Both the position numbers and the translations under genes were made by a program. The notes under the pieces are model-generated. The model worked only from the letters and a program-made list of their open reading frames with translations, did no database searches and was not told the origin of the DNA. DNA of 64,000 nucleotides from Bacteroidota bacterium (GTDB lineage Bacteria; Bacteroidota; Bacteroidia; 2-12-FULL-35-15): positions 1,005,221 through 1,069,220 of the forward strand of contig JAOQAE010000002.1 of assembly GCA_025963725.1 (NCBI GenBank), read 5' to 3'. Every line of letters begins with the position of its first letter. Within the stretch, counting starts at the first letter, position 1. Below are positions 4,252 through 17,801 of the stretch, in pieces.

Positions 4252-5763
4252 TTATTTTGGTTTATGGTTTACAAGGTTCTGTAAAGCTTCGGCAACCTTT
4301 ATCATCCCCAAACAATCCAAATGACAGTATTCAAGCAACGCTCTCCTTGTTTCAATCTGCTTCTCCAACTCTAATTGCTGAAACTTTTCGTAAAGGCTCA
4401 TAGCCATAGCTCCGTTTTTAATTGATAAATTATTATATGACAATTCTTCTGAATTCACCAAGACAGGCAACACCGCTTTAATGCTGGCGCTTCCCTTCAT
4501 TAGGGGATGGTAATAATACTTTTTTGCGAATGGAATCAGTAGGTCTCTTATCCTTTCAATTCTGTTTTGAATATCTCCTTCCAATTCTGGAAATTCGCGA
4601 GCAAGCTCCCGAAGTCTCGCTATCTCGAATGCTTGATTATAAACGATGATTTTCCCTTCTCCTTCCGTATCCTCCAGCAAGCTTTCAATAAAGGCTCTAC
4701 GGGGGTCTTTTCCCCTCTCAGCCAAAAACTCCCTTCTGTCTATCTGACCGTTTATGCTCAGCAGCACACAGTATTGAAAGCAAATTTGTTGGTATGGATG
4801 AGTTCCTTGGTATTCAGGTATTGGACTCATATAGGTTTCAAAGTCCATCCAAAAAGTTGGTTGGTCTAAATTCAGCGTCCCAAGGAACTTTGTTATTTCT
4901 CCATGATTGATTGAAGGGCTGCCTTTTTTTGTAGCCTCAACCTGAACCCACTGTTCCACGCTCAACTTCATATCACTGGGTATTTGTGTAAGTTCAACAA
5001 TACCTTCTTCAATCAGTTGAGTAGCTTTCGACTTCCTCAGCCTGGATAGATTGAATACAGTAATCGGTGGTAGGTCTTTCCAACAATGATTATAAAACGC
5101 GCAGGGGTATGGCTTAAAGCAGGCTTCAGATACCCTGTTATTTGGGCACTGCTGACTTTTCAGTACAGACTCGAATTGAACGAGATAATTCTTAATCAAG
5201 ACTTGGGCATCAATGATTCTTCGCGTCACATCCTCCATCACAAATAATTCATCAACATCCAATTCAACTCCCCGGACGTACTCTTTATTCAAATAGACCA
5301 GGTAGACTTGCAGCGGGGGACCAGTGTAAGAACTGTTTTTTAATACATAGTACTGAAATGCAAGATCGAGAATGTGGTCGGGAGTTTTAATTGAAGTCGA
5401 AGACTTTACCTCAATTAGTCTGGTGTTTCTCTCTGAGCGGACAAAGATGTCTACTTTGCAATTCATCCTCCTGTCAAGGGTTTCGAAAGAAGCCTCGTAG
5501 AATATTTGCTCGTCAGTTTTAAGGGCTGCTTGGGTTTTCTCCATAAGCTCACGTCCGTAAACAGTATCATTTTCGCTTAAATCCCTTCCCCCAGAGTAAA
5601 GTTGACGAGCTATGATTCCGACCTCGGTCCCCTTATCCATTATCATCCTTTGCTCTTCATTGGGAGGAGTTTTTAGTTCAGGATTATTATAGTTCAGCCA
5701 TAATGCTTTATGGCATTGTGTTCCCTTCTGGAAGGGATACTTCGTAAGTGTGATTTTCTTCAT
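4252..5763 (-). CDS. RecB/Cas4-like nuclease fused to DEDDy exonuclease-like DUF2779 domain
   Basis: A 503-residue protein with two apparent nuclease modules. The first (about 1-230) has PD-(D/E)xK features: D105 in CKVD, then E118-V-K120 and Q137-Y-Y139. It also has cysteines C17, C206, C215, C221 and C227, spaced like the iron-sulphur cluster of Cas4/AddB nucleases. The second (about 300-500) matches the DUF2779 type and carries DEDDy-like motifs: D307-F-E309, an ExoII-like YNQAFE (E380 where Asp is usual) and Y479-x3-D483. It probably degrades or trims DNA. It follows the transposase gene by only 11 bp and precedes three small genes with no gaps. The biochemical activity is inferred from motifs alone. 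Confidence 0.75.
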   Translation of the reverse strand: MKKITLTKYPFQKGTQCHKALWLNYNNPELKTPPNEEQRMIMDKGTEVGIIARQLYSGGRDLSENDTVYGRELMEKTQAALKTDEQIFYEASFETLDRRMNCKVDIFVRSERNTRLIEVKSSTSIKTPDHILDLAFQYYVLKNSSYTGPPLQVYLVYLNKEYVRGVELDVDELFVMEDVTRRIIDAQVLIKNYLVQFESVLKSQQCPNNRVSEACFKPYPCAFYNHCWKDLPPITVFNLSRLRKSKATQLIEEGIVELTQIPSDMKLSVEQWVQVEATKKGSPSINHGEITKFLGTLNLDQPTFWMDFETYMSPIPEYQGTHPYQQICFQYCVLLSINGQIDRREFLAERGKDPRRAFIESLLEDTEGEGKIIVYNQAFEIARLRELAREFPELEGDIQNRIERIRDLLIPFAKKYYYHPLMKGSASIKAVLPVLVNSEELSYNNLSIKNGAMAMSLYEKFQQLELEKQIETRRALLEYCHLDCLGMIKVAEALQNLVNHKPK

Positions 5764-5774
5764 GTTAGTTAGTT

Positions 5775-6710
5775 TTAAGCCGCTTTTCTTTTTTCACCGT
5801 ATACATCAGACAGGGGCGGGAAGCAGCGCATTAAAATTTCGAATCCATAGTCGTATTCAAATCGGTATGAATGCCTGAAAGCCTGTTCGTGGACGTAATT
5901 TTGCAATTTTCCTGGGGACACATTCCTCCAGCTACCAACGATACACCGCTTAAGGTTTGAGAAAGCCCCTTCTGCAGAATTGGTAGAAGCGCCAGTGTTG
6001 GAATCTACCCACTCGTATTTTGAGTGATTTACCATAGCGTGTTTGTACCCCAAGCTCTTAAGCTGGTTATAGGCTCCCCATGAATCTGTGTAAATCAATG
6101 TAGATGTTGGGACGTTTTTAATAATTTCAGGGATTATTGTCGTAGCTGATGTATCTGGAATAACTATGAACTTAGCAATGCCTCTACGCTCAATTATGCC
6201 AAGGATTGATGTGCTCCGAAGCGAACCCCTTCCTCGCGTAAAAGGAAAATGCCTACCATAGCCCTTGTTTCCAGTGAGAACGTAGGACTCATCTATCTCT
6301 ACAACAGAATTGGCAAGTTCAAAGTCAAGACAGTCCATCATTAGTCCTCTTACTTGATGTAACATTTTAAAGACGGTTCTATATGCAAATCCAAACTCTC
6401 TATGAATTTCGTTTGCACTGATTCCATTTCTCGAATACAACATTTTAAAAATGATATAGAACCAGTCCGAAACCTTGATATGACTATGGTCGAAAATACT
6501 TCCAGCCATAGGATAAACATGTTTTAGGCAGCGGCTGCAGATAAAGGCTTTCCTTCCCTTCAGGGGATGATAGTATTTATCAATTGAAGCTTTACATAGA
6601 GGATTGAAGCAAAGACCATCTCCATTCATTCGGAATTCAAGCAGCGCCTTAAGGCAGGCTGCTTCGGAACCATATTTTTTTTTGAAAATGGGCACGGTCA
6701 TGTAATGCAT
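5775..6710 (-). CDS. IS1595 (ISXO2-like) family transposase
   Basis: A 311-residue, apparently intact transposase. An N-terminal zinc ribbon is formed by C34, C39, C58 and C61. The DDE-type catalytic core shows D140-E in VEIDES, D209 in YTDSWGAY, and E247 with K254 (SAEGAFSNLKR), as expected for the ISXO2-like DDE fold. The length is typical for IS1595 members. Only 11 bp separate its stop from the DUF2779 gene, which leaves no room for a terminal inverted repeat. It is therefore either the transposase of a larger element carrying passenger genes or a captured copy. The upstream gene begins 84 bp away. Confidence 0.88.
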   Translation of the reverse strand: MHYMTVPIFKKKYGSEAACLKALLEFRMNGDGLCFNPLCKASIDKYYHPLKGRKAFICSRCLKHVYPMAGSIFDHSHIKVSDWFYIIFKMLYSRNGISANEIHREFGFAYRTVFKMLHQVRGLMMDCLDFELANSVVEIDESYVLTGNKGYGRHFPFTRGRGSLRSTSILGIIERRGIAKFIVIPDTSATTIIPEIIKNVPTSTLIYTDSWGAYNQLKSLGYKHAMVNHSKYEWVDSNTGASTNSAEGAFSNLKRCIVGSWRNVSPGKLQNYVHEQAFRHSYRFEYDYGFEILMRCFPPLSDVYGEKRKAA

Positions 6711-10180: not shown

Positions 10181-12874
10181 ATGCTTACACGAATCGCTTT
10201 AATCAACTCGAAAGGATACGGCAAGGCCGAAATGAAACTCGACAATTGTGACTCGATCCAATTGGTGGGGCCGAACAATATCGGTAAATCAACCCTCATC
10301 TACGCACTGAACTTCCTGTTCGTGGTAGACGGGCAAAAGATGTCGTTTTCCGGGCAGCGTAAAGGTGATAAGGAAACCATCCACCACTACTTCCCTACGC
10401 ATAACAAGAGCTTCCTCGTGTTCGAGATCAATAAAATGGGCTATTACTGCATCCTGGTAAAGCGCAATACCGACGGCGAGTTGGAATATTACCGCATCGA
10501 TAGCGAATACACCGAAGAATACTTTTTCGAGAACGAAGGCGCTCACCAGCGCTTGTTGAGCTTCGACGAAGTGCTGGAAAGGCTTATCAGCAAAGGCATT
10601 ATCCACAGCAAGTTCGCTACTAAAACAGATGTGTTCAACGCTGTGTATCACCGCGGGAACAAGAACAATGCGGTGGTTTGGCTGGAAGATACCGTAAAGG
10701 CTGACGGCTTGAGCAACAACTTCTCGAAAGTTTACCGCTACCTGATCAACTCCAAGCTCATCACCAATAAAACACTGAAGGAATCCCTGATCATTGCGGA
10801 TAACCGCGAAAATGAAGGGCTGAACTTCTCACAGAAGAATAAAAAAGACATTACCGACCTGCTTCGCATCAACGAAGAGATCAAGAGCATCAAATCGGTG
10901 CGCACCGATTTCCTCGAGTTCCGCGAGCTGGTGAAGATGCACAATTCGAAAACCACCATTGTAAGCGAATTGCTGTATGCCTTCAACACCGCATACACCA
11001 GCGCTATCCCGGAGCTGGAGATCTCCTCCGTGGAGCGCGGACGCCACATTGCGGCCGTACACAACGAGATCAACGAGATCCTGAAGCCGAAAGAGCTGAA
11101 CTACGCTTCCTACATCGGTGAGAAGAATGCCGAGATCAAGAACAAAACCAATTTCCTTGCTGAAAAGCAGCAGGAGCTGGACGAGATCAACAAGTTCGAA
11201 AGCATCGACTTCCTGAAAGAATCGCTGAAGAACCTCGACAAGGAACGTAAAGAGATCGAGAACCGCATCACCACCATCGAATCGCAGAAGCTTTCCAGCA
11301 AGCACCTGGAGTTCCGCCTCGAAAAGGTGAGCGACAAGATCGCGGCTGTTGAGAACCAGATCGAGAACTACAACAACTTACTGATCCATAAAATTTCGGA
11401 TGATGAGAAAACGAAGCAATTGCTAAACGCCATCCTTTCCGAGCAGGTATTAAGCTTACCAAGCAAGCAGATCAAAAAGCAGATCAAAAAAGCATCGGAG
11501 AAGCTGATGAATATTTTTGACGGCGAGATCGACATCACCAAAGGCCTGGAGCTGACCGAATTCAAATCCGTGAAGGAGCTGAAAGAAGAGCTGAAAGTAT
11601 ACCAGCTGGAGAAAAAGCAAACGGAAGAGCTCCTGAAAACTGTGGTTGACAAGGAAAAGACCGATTTCAAATTGAAGAGCATCCTCGGCGAGATCGAGGT
11701 GATCAAAGAGAAGATCAAAGGCATCGAGACCAAGCCGCAGCTGGAAAGGCAGATCAAAGGCATCATGGAAGAGATCAGGAATTTCAACGATGATAAGAAA
11801 GACCTCGAGATGCACCTGAACGAGCTGGTGAAAGAGATCGCCTCCAAGCAGATCATGCTCGACAAGCTGAACGAGGAAAAACGCAACCTCGAGCTGCGCG
11901 TGAAGGAGCTAAAGGACCGCAAGATGGAAATGGAAGGAATTGATGTGGAGCCGCGCGAATACGAAACAAACGACAACCTCGATTATATCTATTCCAAGAT
12001 CCAGATCCACCAGAAGGACCGTCACGACCTGAAAACAAACAAGGACCTTACCTTCGAGAACCTGAAATACCGCCTCCGCAGCAGTATTGCCGACGAAGTG
12101 GAGTTCATCAGGTTCGTGGAGGAAGAGATCGCCTGCCTGTCCGACAAGGAAAGAAGCATCGACGGCTTGTTGCAGAGCATCTCCACGCAGTTCGCGAACC
12201 CGGCCTTTACATTATTGAAGCGCTACGAAGAGTTCAAGCAGTTCGTGTACAATAAGTTCAACACCAAGCTGGCTACGACCCGCATTTCCAATATCGAATC
12301 GCTGAAGATCGACCTCATGGACAATGAGCGCATCATCGGCGAATTAAAGCAGATCAGCTCGATCCAGGAATTCAACGGGCAGATGAGCTTTGACTTCGAC
12401 CAGTCCGAGAACTTAAAAATCCTTAACACTTACCTCGACAGCGGCAAGAAGGTTCATTTCGACGAGCTGTTCAACATTGAACTCCTCCTCGAGATCAAAG
12501 GCACTGAAAAGCGCGTGGATCTTGCCAACCAGGTAGAGTCCGACGGAACCGACAGGATGATCCGCCTCGTGATCATCATGGCGATCATCAACCGTTTGGC
12601 GATCACCGACGAGCAGAACAAGATCACGCTCTTCATCGATGAGGTTGCTACGATCGATAAGCAGAACCGCCCTGAGCTGGTGAAATTCTGCAACGCGCAC
12701 AACTTCATCCCGATCTTCGCCGCACCGGATGCAGTGGAAGGATTCAACAAATACTATTTCATCTATCCTTCAAAAGGCAAGATCAACATCAACGAAAAGC
12801 AGAATGCTGTGATCGTTGAAAGGAACGGCGTTGTTGAAAAAACCGGGAAGAAGAATTTAAAGGATTTGAACTAA
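10181..12874 (+). CDS. SMC-like ATPase, MukB/JetC-like
   Basis: An 897-residue protein with the SMC layout. Walker A is at residues 30-38 (GPNNIGKST). A long coiled coil runs from about 290 to 680, with a non-helical hinge-like break. A signature-like ESDGTDRMIRL lies at about 786, and Walker B LFIDE has D820-E821 followed by an ATID D-loop. It probably forms the ATP-driven, DNA-loop-extruding motor of a condensin-like complex with the next two products. It is shorter than MukB or JetC (usually above 1000 residues). Unlike mksFEB and jetABC, the ATPase gene comes first. The ATG at 10181 is followed directly by the conserved N-terminal strand. Confidence 0.8.
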   Translation: MLTRIALINSKGYGKAEMKLDNCDSIQLVGPNNIGKSTLIYALNFLFVVDGQKMSFSGQRKGDKETIHHYFPTHNKSFLVFEINKMGYYCILVKRNTDGELEYYRIDSEYTEEYFFENEGAHQRLLSFDEVLERLISKGIIHSKFATKTDVFNAVYHRGNKNNAVVWLEDTVKADGLSNNFSKVYRYLINSKLITNKTLKESLIIADNRENEGLNFSQKNKKDITDLLRINEEIKSIKSVRTDFLEFRELVKMHNSKTTIVSELLYAFNTAYTSAIPELEISSVERGRHIAAVHNEINEILKPKELNYASYIGEKNAEIKNKTNFLAEKQQELDEINKFESIDFLKESLKNLDKERKEIENRITTIESQKLSSKHLEFRLEKVSDKIAAVENQIENYNNLLIHKISDDEKTKQLLNAILSEQVLSLPSKQIKKQIKKASEKLMNIFDGEIDITKGLELTEFKSVKELKEELKVYQLEKKQTEELLKTVVDKEKTDFKLKSILGEIEVIKEKIKGIETKPQLERQIKGIMEEIRNFNDDKKDLEMHLNELVKEIASKQIMLDKLNEEKRNLELRVKELKDRKMEMEGIDVEPREYETNDNLDYIYSKIQIHQKDRHDLKTNKDLTFENLKYRLRSSIADEVEFIRFVEEEIACLSDKERSIDGLLQSISTQFANPAFTLLKRYEEFKQFVYNKFNTKLATTRISNIESLKIDLMDNERIIGELKQISSIQEFNGQMSFDFDQSENLKILNTYLDSGKKVHFDELFNIELLLEIKGTEKRVDLANQVESDGTDRMIRLVIIMAIINRLAITDEQNKITLFIDEVATIDKQNRPELVKFCNAHNFIPIFAAPDAVEGFNKYYFIYPSKGKININEKQNAVIVERNGVVEKTGKKNLKDLN

Positions 12875-12978
12875 GTTCGCAAAAGCTATCGCACATATTT
12901 TCGACAAGCTCAATATGACGCCGCGAGCGGTCTTCTGAGCAGAGTCGAAAGCAAAGGGCAGCAAACAAATTATAACAA
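12875..12978. repeat. repeat fragment inside the condensin-like operon
   Basis: The 104-bp gap between the first two genes of the operon carries TTTCGACAAGCTCAATATGA (12899-12918) and CTTCTGAGCAGAGTCGAAAG (12932-12951), remnants of the inverted TCGA/TGACA-type dispersed repeat. An insertion here would separate genes that are probably still co-transcribed. Confidence 0.5.
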
Positions 12979-14196
12979 ATGAAGGCAGAACCAAAAACAA
13001 TACTCCGCTTTTTAGTTGAGCATTATGATGTGATCGCAGAGCTGTTTGAGACACAGCTGAACGAAGGCATTATCGCCTACGAGGTGCTGAACCAGATCAT
13101 TTCAAAGCATGAGCACGATGTTAAATCGCAGCTGATCGATTACAAGATCCTCAGCCCGGTGAACGATAATTACGAGATCCGCACGGTGTATTACAATCTG
13201 ATTGAATTCATCTTAAGTGAATTCAAGCCGATGCTCCCGGAAACGATCGAAAAATATCACACTTCGGTTGCCGAGCTGTTCCGTAAGATCAAGGAGAACA
13301 TCAATGGCGACAAGGTAACGCTGAGCCAGCGCCTGAACGACCTTGCCATCGAGATCCGCTCCTTCTATGAAATGGTGGAGCGCAATACCATGAGCCTTCT
13401 GCAGGAAACACGCGAGCTGAAGGCAAACGTGAAGAAGATCGATTACCGCGAGAAGATCATCCGCGCTTCCCGTTGGATCGACGAATACATCATTCCTTTG
13501 AACAAGATCCTCGACATCAACCACTCCGCTTCGGTAGCGAACAAATTGTACGAGATCTCCGAATTTTCCAATAAGTACCGCCTGAACTTCGACGATGAAG
13601 GCGCGCGCGTTCAGTTCGAAAAGCTGTATTTCCAGCTGATCCAGGTGAACGACAACCTGCTTCGCCAGTCGAAGATCCTGACCAACGAACTATTGCCGCT
13701 GATCGAGCGCATCCGCACGGAATCCATCATCCTTACCGGCTGGATCACGTTCATGAAGAACCCGTACAAGCGCAAAGTGCCGAAATTACTGAAGCGCAAA
13801 GAGGTTTCCGTTTATTCGAACGATACGTTTTACAACGCTTCCGAAATTTTCGAGCAGTTCAAGAACGAGGTGGATGTATATTTCGAAGAGGAAGAGCACG
13901 AATCGGAAAAATGGATCTTTGATAAAGAGCATTATACGAAAAAGCTGAAGGACAACCTGCCGGTTGAAAATTTCTTCAGCTGGTGCAACAAAACCTTAAA
14001 AGAGGATTATAAAAAAGTGGAGATCGAAAAATTCTTCGCGCTCACCACGCTTGCCTTCGATGAGGACATCGAGCGCGAATACGGCGCAAAGCCATCTTTC
14101 GACAAGATCCGCATCAACGACCTCACACTTACAGTGCCTAAAGTAACTATCAATCAGCAACCACAATTAATAGATCCAAATCATGGAATTTCCTAA
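12979..14196 (+). CDS. probable kleisin subunit, MukF/JetA-like
   Basis: A 405-residue, mostly helical protein. The first 80 residues look like a winged helix (VIAELF, a recognition-helix-like segment, and the wing IDYKILSPVNDNYEI). The middle is long helices (about 85-290) and the C-terminus again has compact charged helices. That is the arrangement of MukF/JetA-type kleisins, which bridge the two heads of the SMC-like ATPase. The assignment rests on shape and on the neighbours, not on a signature motif. The gene overlaps the next by 14 bp. Confidence 0.65.
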   Translation: MKAEPKTILRFLVEHYDVIAELFETQLNEGIIAYEVLNQIISKHEHDVKSQLIDYKILSPVNDNYEIRTVYYNLIEFILSEFKPMLPETIEKYHTSVAELFRKIKENINGDKVTLSQRLNDLAIEIRSFYEMVERNTMSLLQETRELKANVKKIDYREKIIRASRWIDEYIIPLNKILDINHSASVANKLYEISEFSNKYRLNFDDEGARVQFEKLYFQLIQVNDNLLRQSKILTNELLPLIERIRTESIILTGWITFMKNPYKRKVPKLLKRKEVSVYSNDTFYNASEIFEQFKNEVDVYFEEEEHESEKWIFDKEHYTKKLKDNLPVENFFSWCNKTLKEDYKKVEIEKFFALTTLAFDEDIEREYGAKPSFDKIRINDLTLTVPKVTINQQPQLIDPNHGIS

Positions 14197-14710
14197 TCAC
14201 CACCGACAAATCGTAGAAGACCTGATGGCAGGTAAATTTGTTTTGCCGCAGGAGCGCACCTACCAGGTACTAAGAGATAACGAGCAATCGTATACGTATT
14301 TTTTCAAAGCCTCGTTCAATTATGAGCTGCGCTTAACGCAGGATTATGCCTATATCGTTTCCGAGGAATCGGCAGAGATGCTTTCCCGCGACATCTGCAT
14401 CTTCATTGCCTTGTTAAGCTACGAGCTCGACCGCGACGGAAAGAATTTCCTCGAGCGCATCCAGTTCAGCGAATTTGAGATGGAAGAGATCGAGAATTAT
14501 TTCACGAATTCCTCCTACATCGACCTGATCCTTTCCAACAAGCAGCTGAAAGACGCGGATGCCCGCAAAAATTTCATCAATACGCTCAACAGGAGGAACA
14601 TCATCGAAAAAACCGGCGACAACCGCTTTGTATTCACCTCCGCACATAAGTTCTTCATGGATTTCGCAAACGACATCGTGAAGTACGAGAATGCGGAGAA
14701 GGATGAGTAG
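14183..14710 (+). CDS. probable MukE/JetB-like KITE subunit
   Basis: A 175-residue protein. The segment from about residue 12 to 60 (LMAGKFVLPQERTYQVLRD, then YFFKASFNYELRL, then YAYIVSEES) matches the MksE/JetB (DUF4194-like) pattern: a short helix, a strand-rich winged helix, and a polar turn. The rest is two winged-helix-like halves, as in MukE. Its start lies 14 bp inside the kleisin-like gene, which indicates coupled translation. It ends one base short of the convergent secreted-protein gene, so no fourth (JetD-like) gene follows. Confidence 0.72.
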   Translation: MEFPNHHRQIVEDLMAGKFVLPQERTYQVLRDNEQSYTYFFKASFNYELRLTQDYAYIVSEESAEMLSRDICIFIALLSYELDRDGKNFLERIQFSEFEMEEIENYFTNSSYIDLILSNKQLKDADARKNFINTLNRRNIIEKTGDNRFVFTSAHKFFMDFANDIVKYENAEKDE

Positions 14711-14711
14711 C

Positions 14712-17700
14712 TTATCTTAAAACCTGTACAAAGCCATGTGTTGCGGCCGGTCCGGCACCTTCGCAGCGCGACTGATACGTAGCGATCCAGAAGTAAACTC
14801 CGGCAGGCACTTCTTTCCCGTTTACCGTCCTGCCATCCCATTCATTGTTATAGCTATCGGTTGAATATACTTTTTGTCCCCAGCGGTTAAAGATCTCCAT
14901 CTGATAATCCGTTGTATAACGGCCGAATTCTACAGCGCTGATGTGTGAAGAGCCGAATGGTGAAAAGTAATCATTCACTCCATCATTATTCGGGGTAAAA
15001 ATATTTACCGTGCTGTCGGAAGAAAAAGAAAGCGGAGCTGCAATTACTTTTACAGATGCCTGATAGAGACAACCGTTAGTATACCACTGAACCGTATAAT
15101 GACCGATCTCCGCGGGAACAACCGACAATGTATCGGAAGCTGCACCCGGAATAACGGAATGATCATACAGCCATTGAAAAGGCCCCGCCACAGCGGGCGC
15201 ATGCAGAAGAGCAGAAGAGCTCCCCTCGCAAAAATAAGCTGTTATTGAAAGCGTATCCCTGATCGCCGGCGAGCCAATGGTTTCAGGAAACAGCTGGGTG
15301 CATCCGATCGAATCGGTAATGCTTACAACATACATTCCTGAAGGCACATTTACAAGGGTCGGGCCTGTTTGCACCGGAACACTATTCCATGAATAACTGT
15401 AAGGAGGATTTCCATTTACAGGAGAAACAGTAACTGATCCGCCGGTGCCACCGTAGCAGCCTGCACTCACATTGGTGCTTGTAACTGTCATACCCTGAGG
15501 CTGCGTAATTGTAACAGATTGCAATCCAATGCAGCCGGTACTGTCGGTCACCGTTATTGCGTAATCGCCCGCAGAAAGCCCCATAGCGGTGGACGATGTT
15601 TGAACGGGTGCCGTATTCCATGAATATGAAAAAGGCGGGCTTCCGCCAGGTACGCCCGTAACCGTTGCGCTTCCGTTGCTTCCGCCATAGCACAGGGGTG
15701 GGCTTTGCACTGTCGACACAGATAAGCCGCCATATACCGCTACGCTTATCGTATCGGATTGATGGCATCCTGACGTGGCAGTAACTACCACTGTATAAAT
15801 TCCCGGCGAGAGGCCTGTTGCCGTTTGTGTAGTTTGCACCGGCGTGGTATTCCAGGAATACGTATAAGGGCCTCCCTCAAACATTGCGGTTACCGTTGCC
15901 GTTCCGCTGAAATTATTGCTGCAGGAGGCCGGAGTAGTGGAAACGCTTAATGGAGCGCAGCTGGAATTGAAGCCGGCAACGAAGCTTGTGGAAACGGAAA
16001 GATTGCCTCCGCAGGCATAAAACATTCCTCCTTTGCCAATAACAATATCGGTTACATTGTAGGGCGTAGCATTAAAGGAAAGCAGGTTTAAATTCACATC
16101 GTACACATAGATCCCGTTCGGGGAGCCTGCATACACATTACCGCATCTGTCAACGGCAAGGCCCGAGCTTGCACGGAAGATCCCTCCCGGAACGGCAACG
16201 GAAGAAAGCGGCAGTCCTGTGGAAAGGCTTAGCCTGTAAAGTGAATCGCCGGAAAAAGTATACAGGAAGCCGCAGCCCGTTGCGATCCCGTTAAAAGCGT
16301 ATGCTCCGTAATTTTCAGGCGGAGGAACATTATCATAGGTGGAAAAACTGCAAGGCACCCTGAAAACATTCGAAAACACGGGGGAAGGATCGACGCAGGA
16401 TACATGAGTGATGCCACTGTACATATCGGCAGAGCCTATGATATACAACAACCCGTTCCTTCCAAAAACTGCGGAAACAATATCCCCCGTGGTATCGGGA
16501 AAGAACGGGTTTGACTCCACACCGCTGACCGGATCGAGGACAGACATCCGTCCTGCATTGCAGCAGGAGGGCCCGCATCCGCTGAGTATGCACTTCGAAA
16601 AATCATCGTTAAAGCTGATCCTCCAGTTCTCATGAAGGAAAGGGCTTGTGCCGGTGGTCCAGACAAGTGACCCCGAGCTTGTGAGCTTAACTACGAGCGT
16701 GTAATCAAGGTAAGTACTATCCGTGCTAAAGCCGTTTGAGATGTAAGAATTGCCGGAAGCATCCACAGCAATATCGCCGGAATACTCCAGGTTCCAGTGA
16801 GGTTGCGATGTGAGGTGATACGTCCATTGCAGCACGCCTGCCGGATCACGCTTCTGTACATACTGATTGCTGCCCGTCAACCCTTTCTTAAGGCCATATA
16901 CATACACATTGTCATTCTGGTCCCTCGCAATTTCCATAGGAGTATACGCAGGGCTGATGCCCGTGCTTATCCATGGATCCACAATCACAGTGCGGGTGGT
17001 ATCGTAAGCCCCGGTACGGAAACCGACTATATTATGTTCGACACTGAAGGAGGAAGCGATCCCATCTGCACCTGCTTCGTAAAATGTTTGCGGCGCATGA
17101 TCAATTATATCGCCGGCAGCTGTGGGGATGTAAATGTTGCCGGAATAACCGGCATGCACCTTTCCCCCACAGCTCCATTTCATCCTTACCCTTGAAAGAT
17201 CGGCGCCGGGATGCAGCACCAGTGAATATTTTATGCCTTCTTCCGGATGAACCACATACACCACATCGATTCCCGGATAAAGATCTTTATAGATCAGCTT
17301 TTTATATCCCGGCACATTTTCAATACTTTTTGCAGGATCTTTCGGATCGCCATAGCAGTTGTAGCTGTGCTGCTTATCCTCTACTATCACTTCACAGGCG
17401 GGGTTGGCATCAAGCCATTCCATATTCGCAAAGCTGCTGCTTACCGTGGCTTCGATACGCTCTTCCTCGTCCTCTGTTACTTTTTTGCCGAACAGCTTCC
17501 ATTTGTATTTTTTTTCCTTCGCGGAATTTCTCAGGCTTTTGTCGAAGCGATATGTGAGGCCTTTGCGTGTAAAATAGATCTGTGCGCCATCATCCACACC
17601 ATATAGAATTTGTGAGCCGGGCAACTGATCCTTTCCGTCAAATTGTCCCCTGTTCTCAATAAAGGCTCTGTTGTCGGACCGGCTGACACACCAGCCCGAA

Positions 17701-17801
17701 GCAGCGGAGCTCTGCACCACCTGTGCAGATCCATGAAGAGATAACAACAGCAGGCTGAAGCATACAAAATAGCGGAAGCCTGAGTGATCCTTATTTGCCA
17801 T
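14712..17801 (-). CDS. secreted protein with SprB-like repeats and gliding-motility (type B) T9SS tail
   Basis: A 1029-residue surface or secreted protein. After a signal peptide (about 1-27) comes an FIENRGQFDG-type domain (DUF7948-like, about 45-270). Then follow beta-propeller-like repeats, then three SprB-like units of about 70 residues, each with SYSWN and a G-x-Y-x-V strand followed by C. The C-terminal 95 residues, from NIFTPNNDGVNDYF to G-F-V-Q-V, are a CHU_C/gliding-motility C-terminal domain, which routes the protein through type IX secretion. Likely adhesive or cell-surface role. It is convergent with the condensin-like operon with a 1-bp gap. Confidence 0.88.
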   Translation of the reverse strand: MANKDHSGFRYFVCFSLLLLSLHGSAQVVQSSAASGWCVSRSDNRAFIENRGQFDGKDQLPGSQILYGVDDGAQIYFTRKGLTYRFDKSLRNSAKEKKYKWKLFGKKVTEDEEERIEATVSSSFANMEWLDANPACEVIVEDKQHSYNCYGDPKDPAKSIENVPGYKKLIYKDLYPGIDVVYVVHPEEGIKYSLVLHPGADLSRVRMKWSCGGKVHAGYSGNIYIPTAAGDIIDHAPQTFYEAGADGIASSFSVEHNIVGFRTGAYDTTRTVIVDPWISTGISPAYTPMEIARDQNDNVYVYGLKKGLTGSNQYVQKRDPAGVLQWTYHLTSQPHWNLEYSGDIAVDASGNSYISNGFSTDSTYLDYTLVVKLTSSGSLVWTTGTSPFLHENWRISFNDDFSKCILSGCGPSCCNAGRMSVLDPVSGVESNPFFPDTTGDIVSAVFGRNGLLYIIGSADMYSGITHVSCVDPSPVFSNVFRVPCSFSTYDNVPPPENYGAYAFNGIATGCGFLYTFSGDSLYRLSLSTGLPLSSVAVPGGIFRASSGLAVDRCGNVYAGSPNGIYVYDVNLNLLSFNATPYNVTDIVIGKGGMFYACGGNLSVSTSFVAGFNSSCAPLSVSTTPASCSNNFSGTATVTAMFEGGPYTYSWNTTPVQTTQTATGLSPGIYTVVVTATSGCHQSDTISVAVYGGLSVSTVQSPPLCYGGSNGSATVTGVPGGSPPFSYSWNTAPVQTSSTAMGLSAGDYAITVTDSTGCIGLQSVTITQPQGMTVTSTNVSAGCYGGTGGSVTVSPVNGNPPYSYSWNSVPVQTGPTLVNVPSGMYVVSITDSIGCTQLFPETIGSPAIRDTLSITAYFCEGSSSALLHAPAVAGPFQWLYDHSVIPGAASDTLSVVPAEIGHYTVQWYTNGCLYQASVKVIAAPLSFSSDSTVNIFTPNNDGVNDYFSPFGSSHISAVEFGRYTTDYQMEIFNRWGQKVYSTDSYNNEWDGRTVNGKEVPAGVYFWIATYQSRCEGAGPAATHGFVQVLR

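Follow-up and report, generated by a model that had tools for sequence, protein, structure and literature searches.

Gene content and gene order of the locus

A stretch of 64,000 nucleotides from a Bacteroidota bacterium (GenBank assembly GCA_025963725.1, contig JAOQAE010000002.1, positions 1,005,221 to 1,069,220 of the forward strand), referred to below as the window, carries three adjacent genes for an SMC-like ATPase, a candidate kleisin and the small protein MksE, a KITE subunit. The analysis confirmed the finding as real: the genes point to a rotated complex of the Mks/Wadjet type without a nuclease, and they are core in a genus in which we recognised no further condensin. The following features make up the locus:

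10181..12874, + strand: gene for the MksB/MukB-like SMC ATPase (open reading frame, 897 residues)
10268..10294, + strand: Walker A motif GPNNIGKST, ATPase residues 30-38
12620..12643, + strand: Walker B motif KITLFIDE, ATPase residues 814-821, including D820 and E821
12875..12978, + strand: gap of 104 bp between ATPase and kleisin genes, the position of the nuclease gene in relatives
12979..14196, + strand: gene for the putative MukF/MksF-like kleisin (open reading frame, 405 residues; assigned by predicted fold)
14183..14710, + strand: gene for MksE, the KITE subunit (open reading frame, 175 residues; Pfam PF21980)
14712..17801, - strand: convergent gene (open reading frame, 1029 residues)

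The kleisin and MksE genes share 14 bp, and a single base lies between MksE and the end of the convergent gene. The order in the window is ATPase-kleisin-KITE (B-F-E) with no fourth gene. The open reading frames agree with an earlier sequence-only reading of this DNA, which had described three adjacent genes of these sizes, the overlap, the convergent neighbour one base away and the absence of a nuclease gene after the trio. Its claim that the gene order differs from that of known Mks and Wadjet systems also holds, the published order being F-E-B(-G). The B-F-E order was found in 69 of 80 named loci, kept from at least 161 relatives of a named-genome scan, and therefore represents a real conserved gene set and not a one-off. 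Among the remaining 11 loci, one has a split ATPase gene, two are cut by a contig end before the third gene, and six consist of the ATPase alone, likewise at a contig end; the last two (L144 and L162) show no kleisin despite 1.3 kb and 6 kb of following sequence.

Within the 104-bp gap, an imperfect inverted repeat of about 50 bp lies at about 12899-12950, each half of which matches once in the window. Nuclease profiles detected no nuclease remnant in this gap, which measures only 18 bp in the nearest relative (L109). Scans for promoters and terminators returned no more signals than shuffled sequence. At the same junction in another genome (G019, loci L101/L119), a 4.5-kb insert with two genes parts the trio ATPase from the kleisin; one of these genes encodes 1149 residues and its product looks secreted.

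The ATPase, MksE and the candidate kleisin

The assignment of the 897-residue protein to the SMC-like ATPases of the MukBEF, Mks and Wadjet side, with Walker A at residues 30-38 and Walker B near 816-821, was upheld by the motifs, by fold matches to MukBEF and by a profile match to Mks ATPases. Residues N32, N33, G35, K36, S37, D820 and E821 are invariant across 15 aligned sequences, and G30 is replaced by A in a distant group of the same alignment. The coiled-coil arms are short, with predicted helices at about 218-400 and 464-697 and a small low-confidence hinge region between them. The predicted model reached a predicted local distance difference test score (pLDDT) of 68, a modest confidence probably due to the 15 rows of its alignment. 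In a Foldseek search with this model, MukBEF chains occupied ranks one to four (best 9gm9_A, E 6.3e-14, template-modelling score 0.26), followed at ranks five and six by chains of Rad50 complexes (E 5.5e-10 and 3.9e-9), and the Wadjet-II chain 9qe0_B matched with E 2.8e-8. The ATPase profile matched conventional Mks ATPases over the head with a probability of 99.1. The Pfam models DUF3584 and MukB gave no match to the window ATPase, and sequence searches of the PDB (with the ATPase alone and with the alignments of all three proteins) gave no SMC match.

The fold search also bears on the question of whether the ATPase stands nearer to RecN or SbcC. A repair protein of the RecN/SbcC/Rad50 kind would suit the Rad50-complex chains at ranks five and six; the higher-ranking MukBEF chains (in the search with the pLDDT 68 model) and the operon partners, i.e., MksE and a protein of MukF-like fold kept together with the ATPase across loci, make such an identity very improbable.

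The small protein had been described as MksE/JetB-like, and it matches Pfam PF21980 well above the cut-off (78.6 bits against a cut-off of 27, E 9.4e-22), as do all 15 members of the MksE alignment. For the 405-residue protein, which had been read as a winged-helix/helical protein, the predicted MukF-like fold supports the description, and sequence profiles left the kleisin identity unconfirmed. Thus, in comparison with kleisin and KITE models, the 175-residue protein is MksE by Pfam, and the 405-residue protein resembles MukF by predicted fold only. Its model (pLDDT 76, 15-row alignment) features an N-terminal winged helix, a long helical bundle, a linker and a C-terminal winged helix. In Foldseek, a MukF-sized chain of MukBEF scored best (9gm7_C, E 5.8e-3, probability 0.96), and nothing matched at E 0.001 or better. 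In VIA-align, chains of MukF structures aligned at Z 12-13 over 230-270 residues, the MukE-MukF chain 3rpu_X at Z 13.4 over 244 residues with a root-mean-square deviation (rmsd) of 10.4, and the Wadjet-II JetABC chain 9qe0_E at Z 10.5 over 317 residues with an rmsd of 23.0; such high rmsd values suggest a different mutual orientation of the domains. The VIA-align list also includes unrelated helical bundles at similar Z, e.g., a syntaxin complex (13.5) and CorA (12.4). The match to MukF carries weight only in that the alignment of MukF chains begins at the first winged helix, whereas the unrelated bundles mostly align with the bundle only; it supports the MukF-like fold but falls short of proof. 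No sequence model matched this protein above a curated cut-off; NF040857 ('condensinMksB', 412 positions) matched weakly (E 4.5e-4), as it did in two of 15 members. From fold, size and place, we infer that the 405-residue protein is a kleisin.

Distribution and conservation

The ATPase was detected in 37 of 99 genomes searched, the source genome being one of the 99: in 32 of 36 genomes of the genus and in five genomes of three other families. All 26 genus genomes of at least 90% completeness possess it, and the four genomes without it are 64-80% complete. On the question of whether the trio is core or patchy, it is core in the genus. A wider draw of 396 Bacteroidia genomes, requested at a completeness of at least 90%, contained the trio kleisin in 49 genomes and 19 of 198 genera, although in one of the 49 (G226) the match is a kleisin fragment of some 95 residues interrupted by stops. 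Family f11 has the kleisin in 39 of 46 genomes and 12 of 14 genera. Nearly all kept named relatives (78/80) are labelled Bacteroidota, e.g., Pontibacter vulgaris, Mesonia, Nonlabens, Arenibacter and the complete genome CP012155. The other two are an 'uncultured bacterium' and a metagenome-assembled genome labelled Competibacteraceae (L176), whose kleisin is identical to that of a genome of the same class (G103); the Competibacteraceae label is probably wrong.

Within the genus, the place of the trio is shared, as an lgt gene (PF01790) follows MksE in 8 of the 18 loci read with flanks, including the second copy of one genome (G015). Non-synonymous divergence (dN) between near relatives amounts to 0.02-0.08 for the trio genes versus 0.10-0.17 for lgt, with synonymous sites at or near saturation. 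Mean identity across 18 genus genomes (leaving out G030) is 81% for the trio versus 94% for RpoB, and trio and RpoB trees have seven of 19 splits in common, compared with a mean of 0.19 and at most two in shuffles. Plasmid records gave eight partial ATPase matches of 21-43% identity, none covering 80%; the single slot nuclease compared with them had no match, and no kleisin match was found in phages.

Other condensins in the genus and the class

Neither ScpA (PF02616) nor, above the cut-off, SMC (TIGR02168) was found in any of the 36 genus genomes; ScpB was not searched for. The source genome contains a single MksE. In the class draw, ScpA occurs in 94 of 396 genomes, MksE of any kind in 123 (one of them, G311, below the curated cut-off) and both in 16. 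The trio kleisin and ScpA are found together in two genomes (G223 and G400), where independent occurrence in 49 and 94 genomes would give about 12; this contrast is descriptive, as it ignores relatedness and is inflated by it. None of the ScpA-positive genomes of the draw belongs to family f11.

Conventional operons are present in the same class. In 14 of 17 loci read with a more distant MksE (L079-L095), a kleisin-sized gene and MksE precede an ATPase-sized gene of 1051-1250 residues; the exceptions are cut by a contig end (L086), have 825 residues at the place of the ATPase (L087) or hold other genes in between (L095). Several of these loci have a next gene of about 285-317 residues. Among the three fourth genes tested, those of L079 and L081 match DUF7281 above the cut-off and that of L088 matches JetD_C below the cut-off. 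F-E-B-(D) operons thus exist beside the rotated ones. Both kinds even share one genome, G015, which has four MksE genes: one in the core trio, one in a second operon of the order B-D-F-E with about 32% identity, and one in each of two F-E-B operons, of which one includes a DUF7281 gene. Apart from this, family f41 often shows an MksE match; the one locus read (L083, genome G075) encodes a kleisin of 412, an MksE of 203 and an ATPase of 1229 residues. As no fourth gene follows on that strand, it may be a further condensin without a nuclease.

The nuclease slot between ATPase and kleisin

In some relatives, a JetD-like TOPRIM protein of about 263-280 residues is encoded between ATPase and kleisin. 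Matches of these slot proteins to DUF7281 or JetD_C are weak and below the cut-off in five of the six tested, and two of five match JetD1 of PADLOC (best E 5.9e-5). A profile made solely of the 12 slot proteins picked up the fourth genes of four F-E-B-D operons (L079, 8.7e-13; L080, 1.1e-11; L081, 9.4e-10; L082, 6.7e-9). The residues E144, D187 and D189 (numbering of L182) are unchanged in 16 of 16 slot nucleases; we take them to be the E...DxD pattern typical of TOPRIM nucleases. In the six nuclease-bearing loci checked, the nuclease gene begins close to the stop codon of the ATPase gene, and its end runs 1-8 bases into the kleisin gene. Circular permutation of the usual F-E-B-D gives B-D-F-E, and with the nuclease placed between ATPase and kleisin in relatives, the order in the window is that of a rotated Wadjet-type operon.

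The junction was read at 77 loci of 76 genomes (G015 counted twice). An intact nuclease fills the slot in six (the second copy of G015, and G294, G223, G400, G278 and G439), a remnant is left in one (G435), and 70 slots are empty, the window and all 25 genus core copies with a readable junction included. The remnant (locus L154, which lies on this G435 contig) comprises the last 55 residues (E 3.6e-8 by the slot-nuclease profile), lacks the part with E and DxD and is nearest, within a set of 16 sequences, to the nuclease of the sister operon L251 (54.5%, E 2e-17). Of the 49 kleisin-bearing class genomes, 47 were readable at the junction, G024 being split between contigs and G226 a fragment. 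Both genomes with trio and ScpA (G223, G400) have a nuclease in the slot; among the 45 without ScpA, a nuclease was seen at the only trio copy in G294 and G278 and at a second copy in G015.

In a tree of 87 distinct operons, the 12 nuclease-bearing operons and the one with a remnant are scattered. This tree is a quick one with long-branch warnings for L238, L233, L178, L234 and others, and on it the slot history requires at least eight changes, gain and loss counted alike, or 18 losses with a nuclease at the root (15 with weak branches collapsed and absences lumped). A single ancient loss of the nuclease was considered and rejected on these counts. Tree neighbours with opposite slot states occur, L232 beside L168, and L251 beside L154 and L245. 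The trios of L232 and L251 are 75% identical, their nucleases 35%; due to this mismatch, exchange or re-entry at the slot is also likely, besides loss. Nuclease absence is a variable state and not a property of the family; the direction of change is one that we infer. Very alike four-gene operons in Mesonia, Nonlabens, Arenibacter and other Flavobacteriaceae (L182-L186) suggest a recent spread between genera.

Nuclease genes were also looked for outside the slot. The source genome has no JetD_C or DUF7281 match, and PADLOC matched none of the three proteins to JetA, JetB or JetD, and the ATPase weakly to JetC (E 3.5e-4). JetD_C matches occur in three of the 99 searched genomes, one of them in the genus (G020), and DUF7281 matches in three as well, two of them in the genus (G015 and G020); these DUF7281 matches fall in separate F-E-B-D operons. 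Five of 46 f11 genomes have a JetD_C match, i.e., the slot gene of G294 and four strong matches (G123, G418, G422, G427), the frames of which span 379-394 residues and do not share a contig with the trio. Classical Wadjet operons probably coexist with the trio in these four genomes.

Chromosome organisation or defence

According to the reading that we consider rather probable, the trio is a nuclease-free Mks/Wadjet-family complex of a Bacteroidota branch and the main condensin of this genus. The locus would encode a three-subunit SMC complex of the MukBEF superfamily, in which two ATPases would be joined by the kleisin with the KITE subunits bound to the latter. Such a complex would load on the chromosome and use ATP to enlarge DNA loops, thereby acting as the main condensin in a genus where SMC and ScpA were not found. 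It would stand for a branch of the Mks/Wadjet family with a rotated, ATPase-first operon, which in other lineages includes a JetD-like TOPRIM nuclease between ATPase and kleisin. The chromosomal role is favoured because the trio is core in the genus, SMC and ScpA were not found there and the source genome is without a JetD_C or DUF7281 match. The place beside lgt in part of the genus, the slow protein change, the frequency of the kleisin in f11, its rare meeting with ScpA and the scarcity of plasmid and phage matches also speak for it. The sequence-only reading had proposed either a chromosome-organising condensin or a defence system; the former is now better supported, and the nuclease-bearing relatives could not be seen from the window.

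Several observations weigh against this reading. Even on 87 sequences, profile-profile comparison of the 405-residue protein with conventional Mks kleisins reached no significance; the KITE proteins compared only weakly with conventional ones (probability 22 and 8). In PADLOC, the ATPase matched AriA (E 2.2e-6) and HEC-01A (4e-5), both above JetC. The kleisin is lacking in seven of the 46 f11 genomes, three of which are 99% complete. Many well-supported conflicts separate the trio tree from RpoB, and one genome inside the genus by RpoB (G030, locus L070) carries a trio only about 50% identical to that of the window, a foreign-looking set explained by either replacement or a binning error. Moreover, about half of the Bacteroidia draw (195/396) shows neither ScpA nor MksE at the thresholds used and thus no condensin recognised by these two markers, so a 'sole condensin' may mean no more than the sole recognised one. 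The survey for a co-occurring JetD, which returned no JetD_C or DUF7281 match in the source genome, is likewise to be read with caution: in whole-genome searches, both models missed the nuclease of the second operon of G015, and JetD_C missed the slot nucleases of G278 and G439. As the models overlook known slot nucleases, the absence from the source genome is suggestive only. The slot-nuclease profile found no match in the 64-kb window, the sole stretch of this genome searched with it.

A defence role, in which a Wadjet-like complex silences or removes plasmids by means of a nuclease encoded elsewhere or by compaction alone, is unlikely, though it is the strongest of the rivals. It would account for the relatives of the same operon type whose JetD-like TOPRIM protein keeps E and DxD throughout (16/16), and for the very similar four-gene copies across Flavobacteriaceae genera, a pattern that a defence operon would leave as it spreads; further room comes from the models applied to the source genome, which overlook some slot nucleases. 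It fits poorly with a source genome without a JetD_C or DUF7281 match, with the core status of the trio in the genus and its frequent place next to lgt, and with the PADLOC result of a weak JetC match and none to the other Jet proteins. That one nuclease-free complex does both, folding the chromosome and lowering plasmid copy number while plasmid pressure fills or empties the slot, is improbable. Nuclease-bearing and nuclease-free operons close to each other in the tree would agree with this, as would a nuclease far more diverged than the trio (35% vs 75% for L232 and L251), but none of the 25 genus core copies with a readable junction has a filled slot.

Compared with the condensin reading of the genus trio, a broader proposal is more tentative and, in our view, somewhat short of an even prospect: the Bacteroidota SMC family may shift, as one gene slot is filled or emptied, between Wadjet-like defence (B-D-F-E) and service as the chromosome condensin of lineages that lack SMC-ScpAB (B-F-E). 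If this were true, intermediates of a condensin take-over would still be readable, with both slot states among near neighbours.

Neighbouring genes

The convergent neighbour had been taken for a secreted protein, and its product (14712-17801) indeed features type IX secretion domains together with SprB repeats and DUF7948. This gene sits between MksE and lgt, which follows MksE in other members of the genus. Upstream of the trio, the window encodes an IS1595-type transposase at 5775-6710 (PF12762, E 1e-25) and a DUF2779 protein at 4252-5763 with a weak Cas4-like and a weak RNase H-like match.

Comparison with known systems

The trio resembles MksBEF of P. aeruginosa in comprising an ATPase, a kleisin-like protein and MksE without a nuclease gene beside them. 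A role of MksBEF in chromosome organisation is reported in PMC7485682 and PMC10586767. The order differs, the mks operon being given as F-E-B-G (mksFEBG) in PMC10123090, with F-E-B for MksBEF versus B-F-E here. So does the size of the ATPase, with 897 residues here versus 1111 for MksB of C. glutamicum (PMC10123090) and 1051-1250 in 14 of the 17 conventional loci. Furthermore, P. aeruginosa also has SMC, and none was found in this genus. In titles and abstract openings of the accessible literature, outside of which most subscription papers lie, no ATPase-first Mks operon was found.

With Wadjet (JetABCD/MksBEFG), the trio shares a three-subunit core of the same kind, and the slot-nuclease profile of its relatives matches the fourth gene of four conventional F-E-B-D operons. 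Unlike in Wadjet, a nuclease is absent beside the window trio, with none matched in the source genome; the order is rotated, and the nuclease of the relatives is the second gene, not the last. For MksBEF of P. aeruginosa, it was argued in PMC10586767 that a chromosome condensin can arise from Wadjet by loss of JetD. The relatives with a nuclease in a fixed slot offer a natural series for this idea.

The presumed job of the trio is that of SMC-ScpAB, neither ScpA nor SMC being found above the cut-off in the 36 genus genomes. A Hi-C study included two Bacteroidetes, neither of them with a known condensin (PMC10197239). The trio, present also in the complete genome CP012155, is a concrete and deletable candidate chromosome folder for some Bacteroidota lineages, Bacteroides itself lying outside this claim.

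MukBEF of Escherichia coli provides the best Foldseek matches for both the window ATPase and the kleisin, and the Pfam models of MukB, MukF and MukE gave no match to the window proteins up to E 1. MukB is larger, at about 1,500 residues (the MukBEF chains of the ATPase fold search have 1467), and belongs to another phylum and another operon order. MukBEF is a case of a Muk-type complex replacing SMC-ScpAB (PMC10586767). If the proposed shift between defence and condensin holds true, the Bacteroidota trio would be the second instance, independent of the one in enterobacteria, of a Muk-type complex taking over as condensin.

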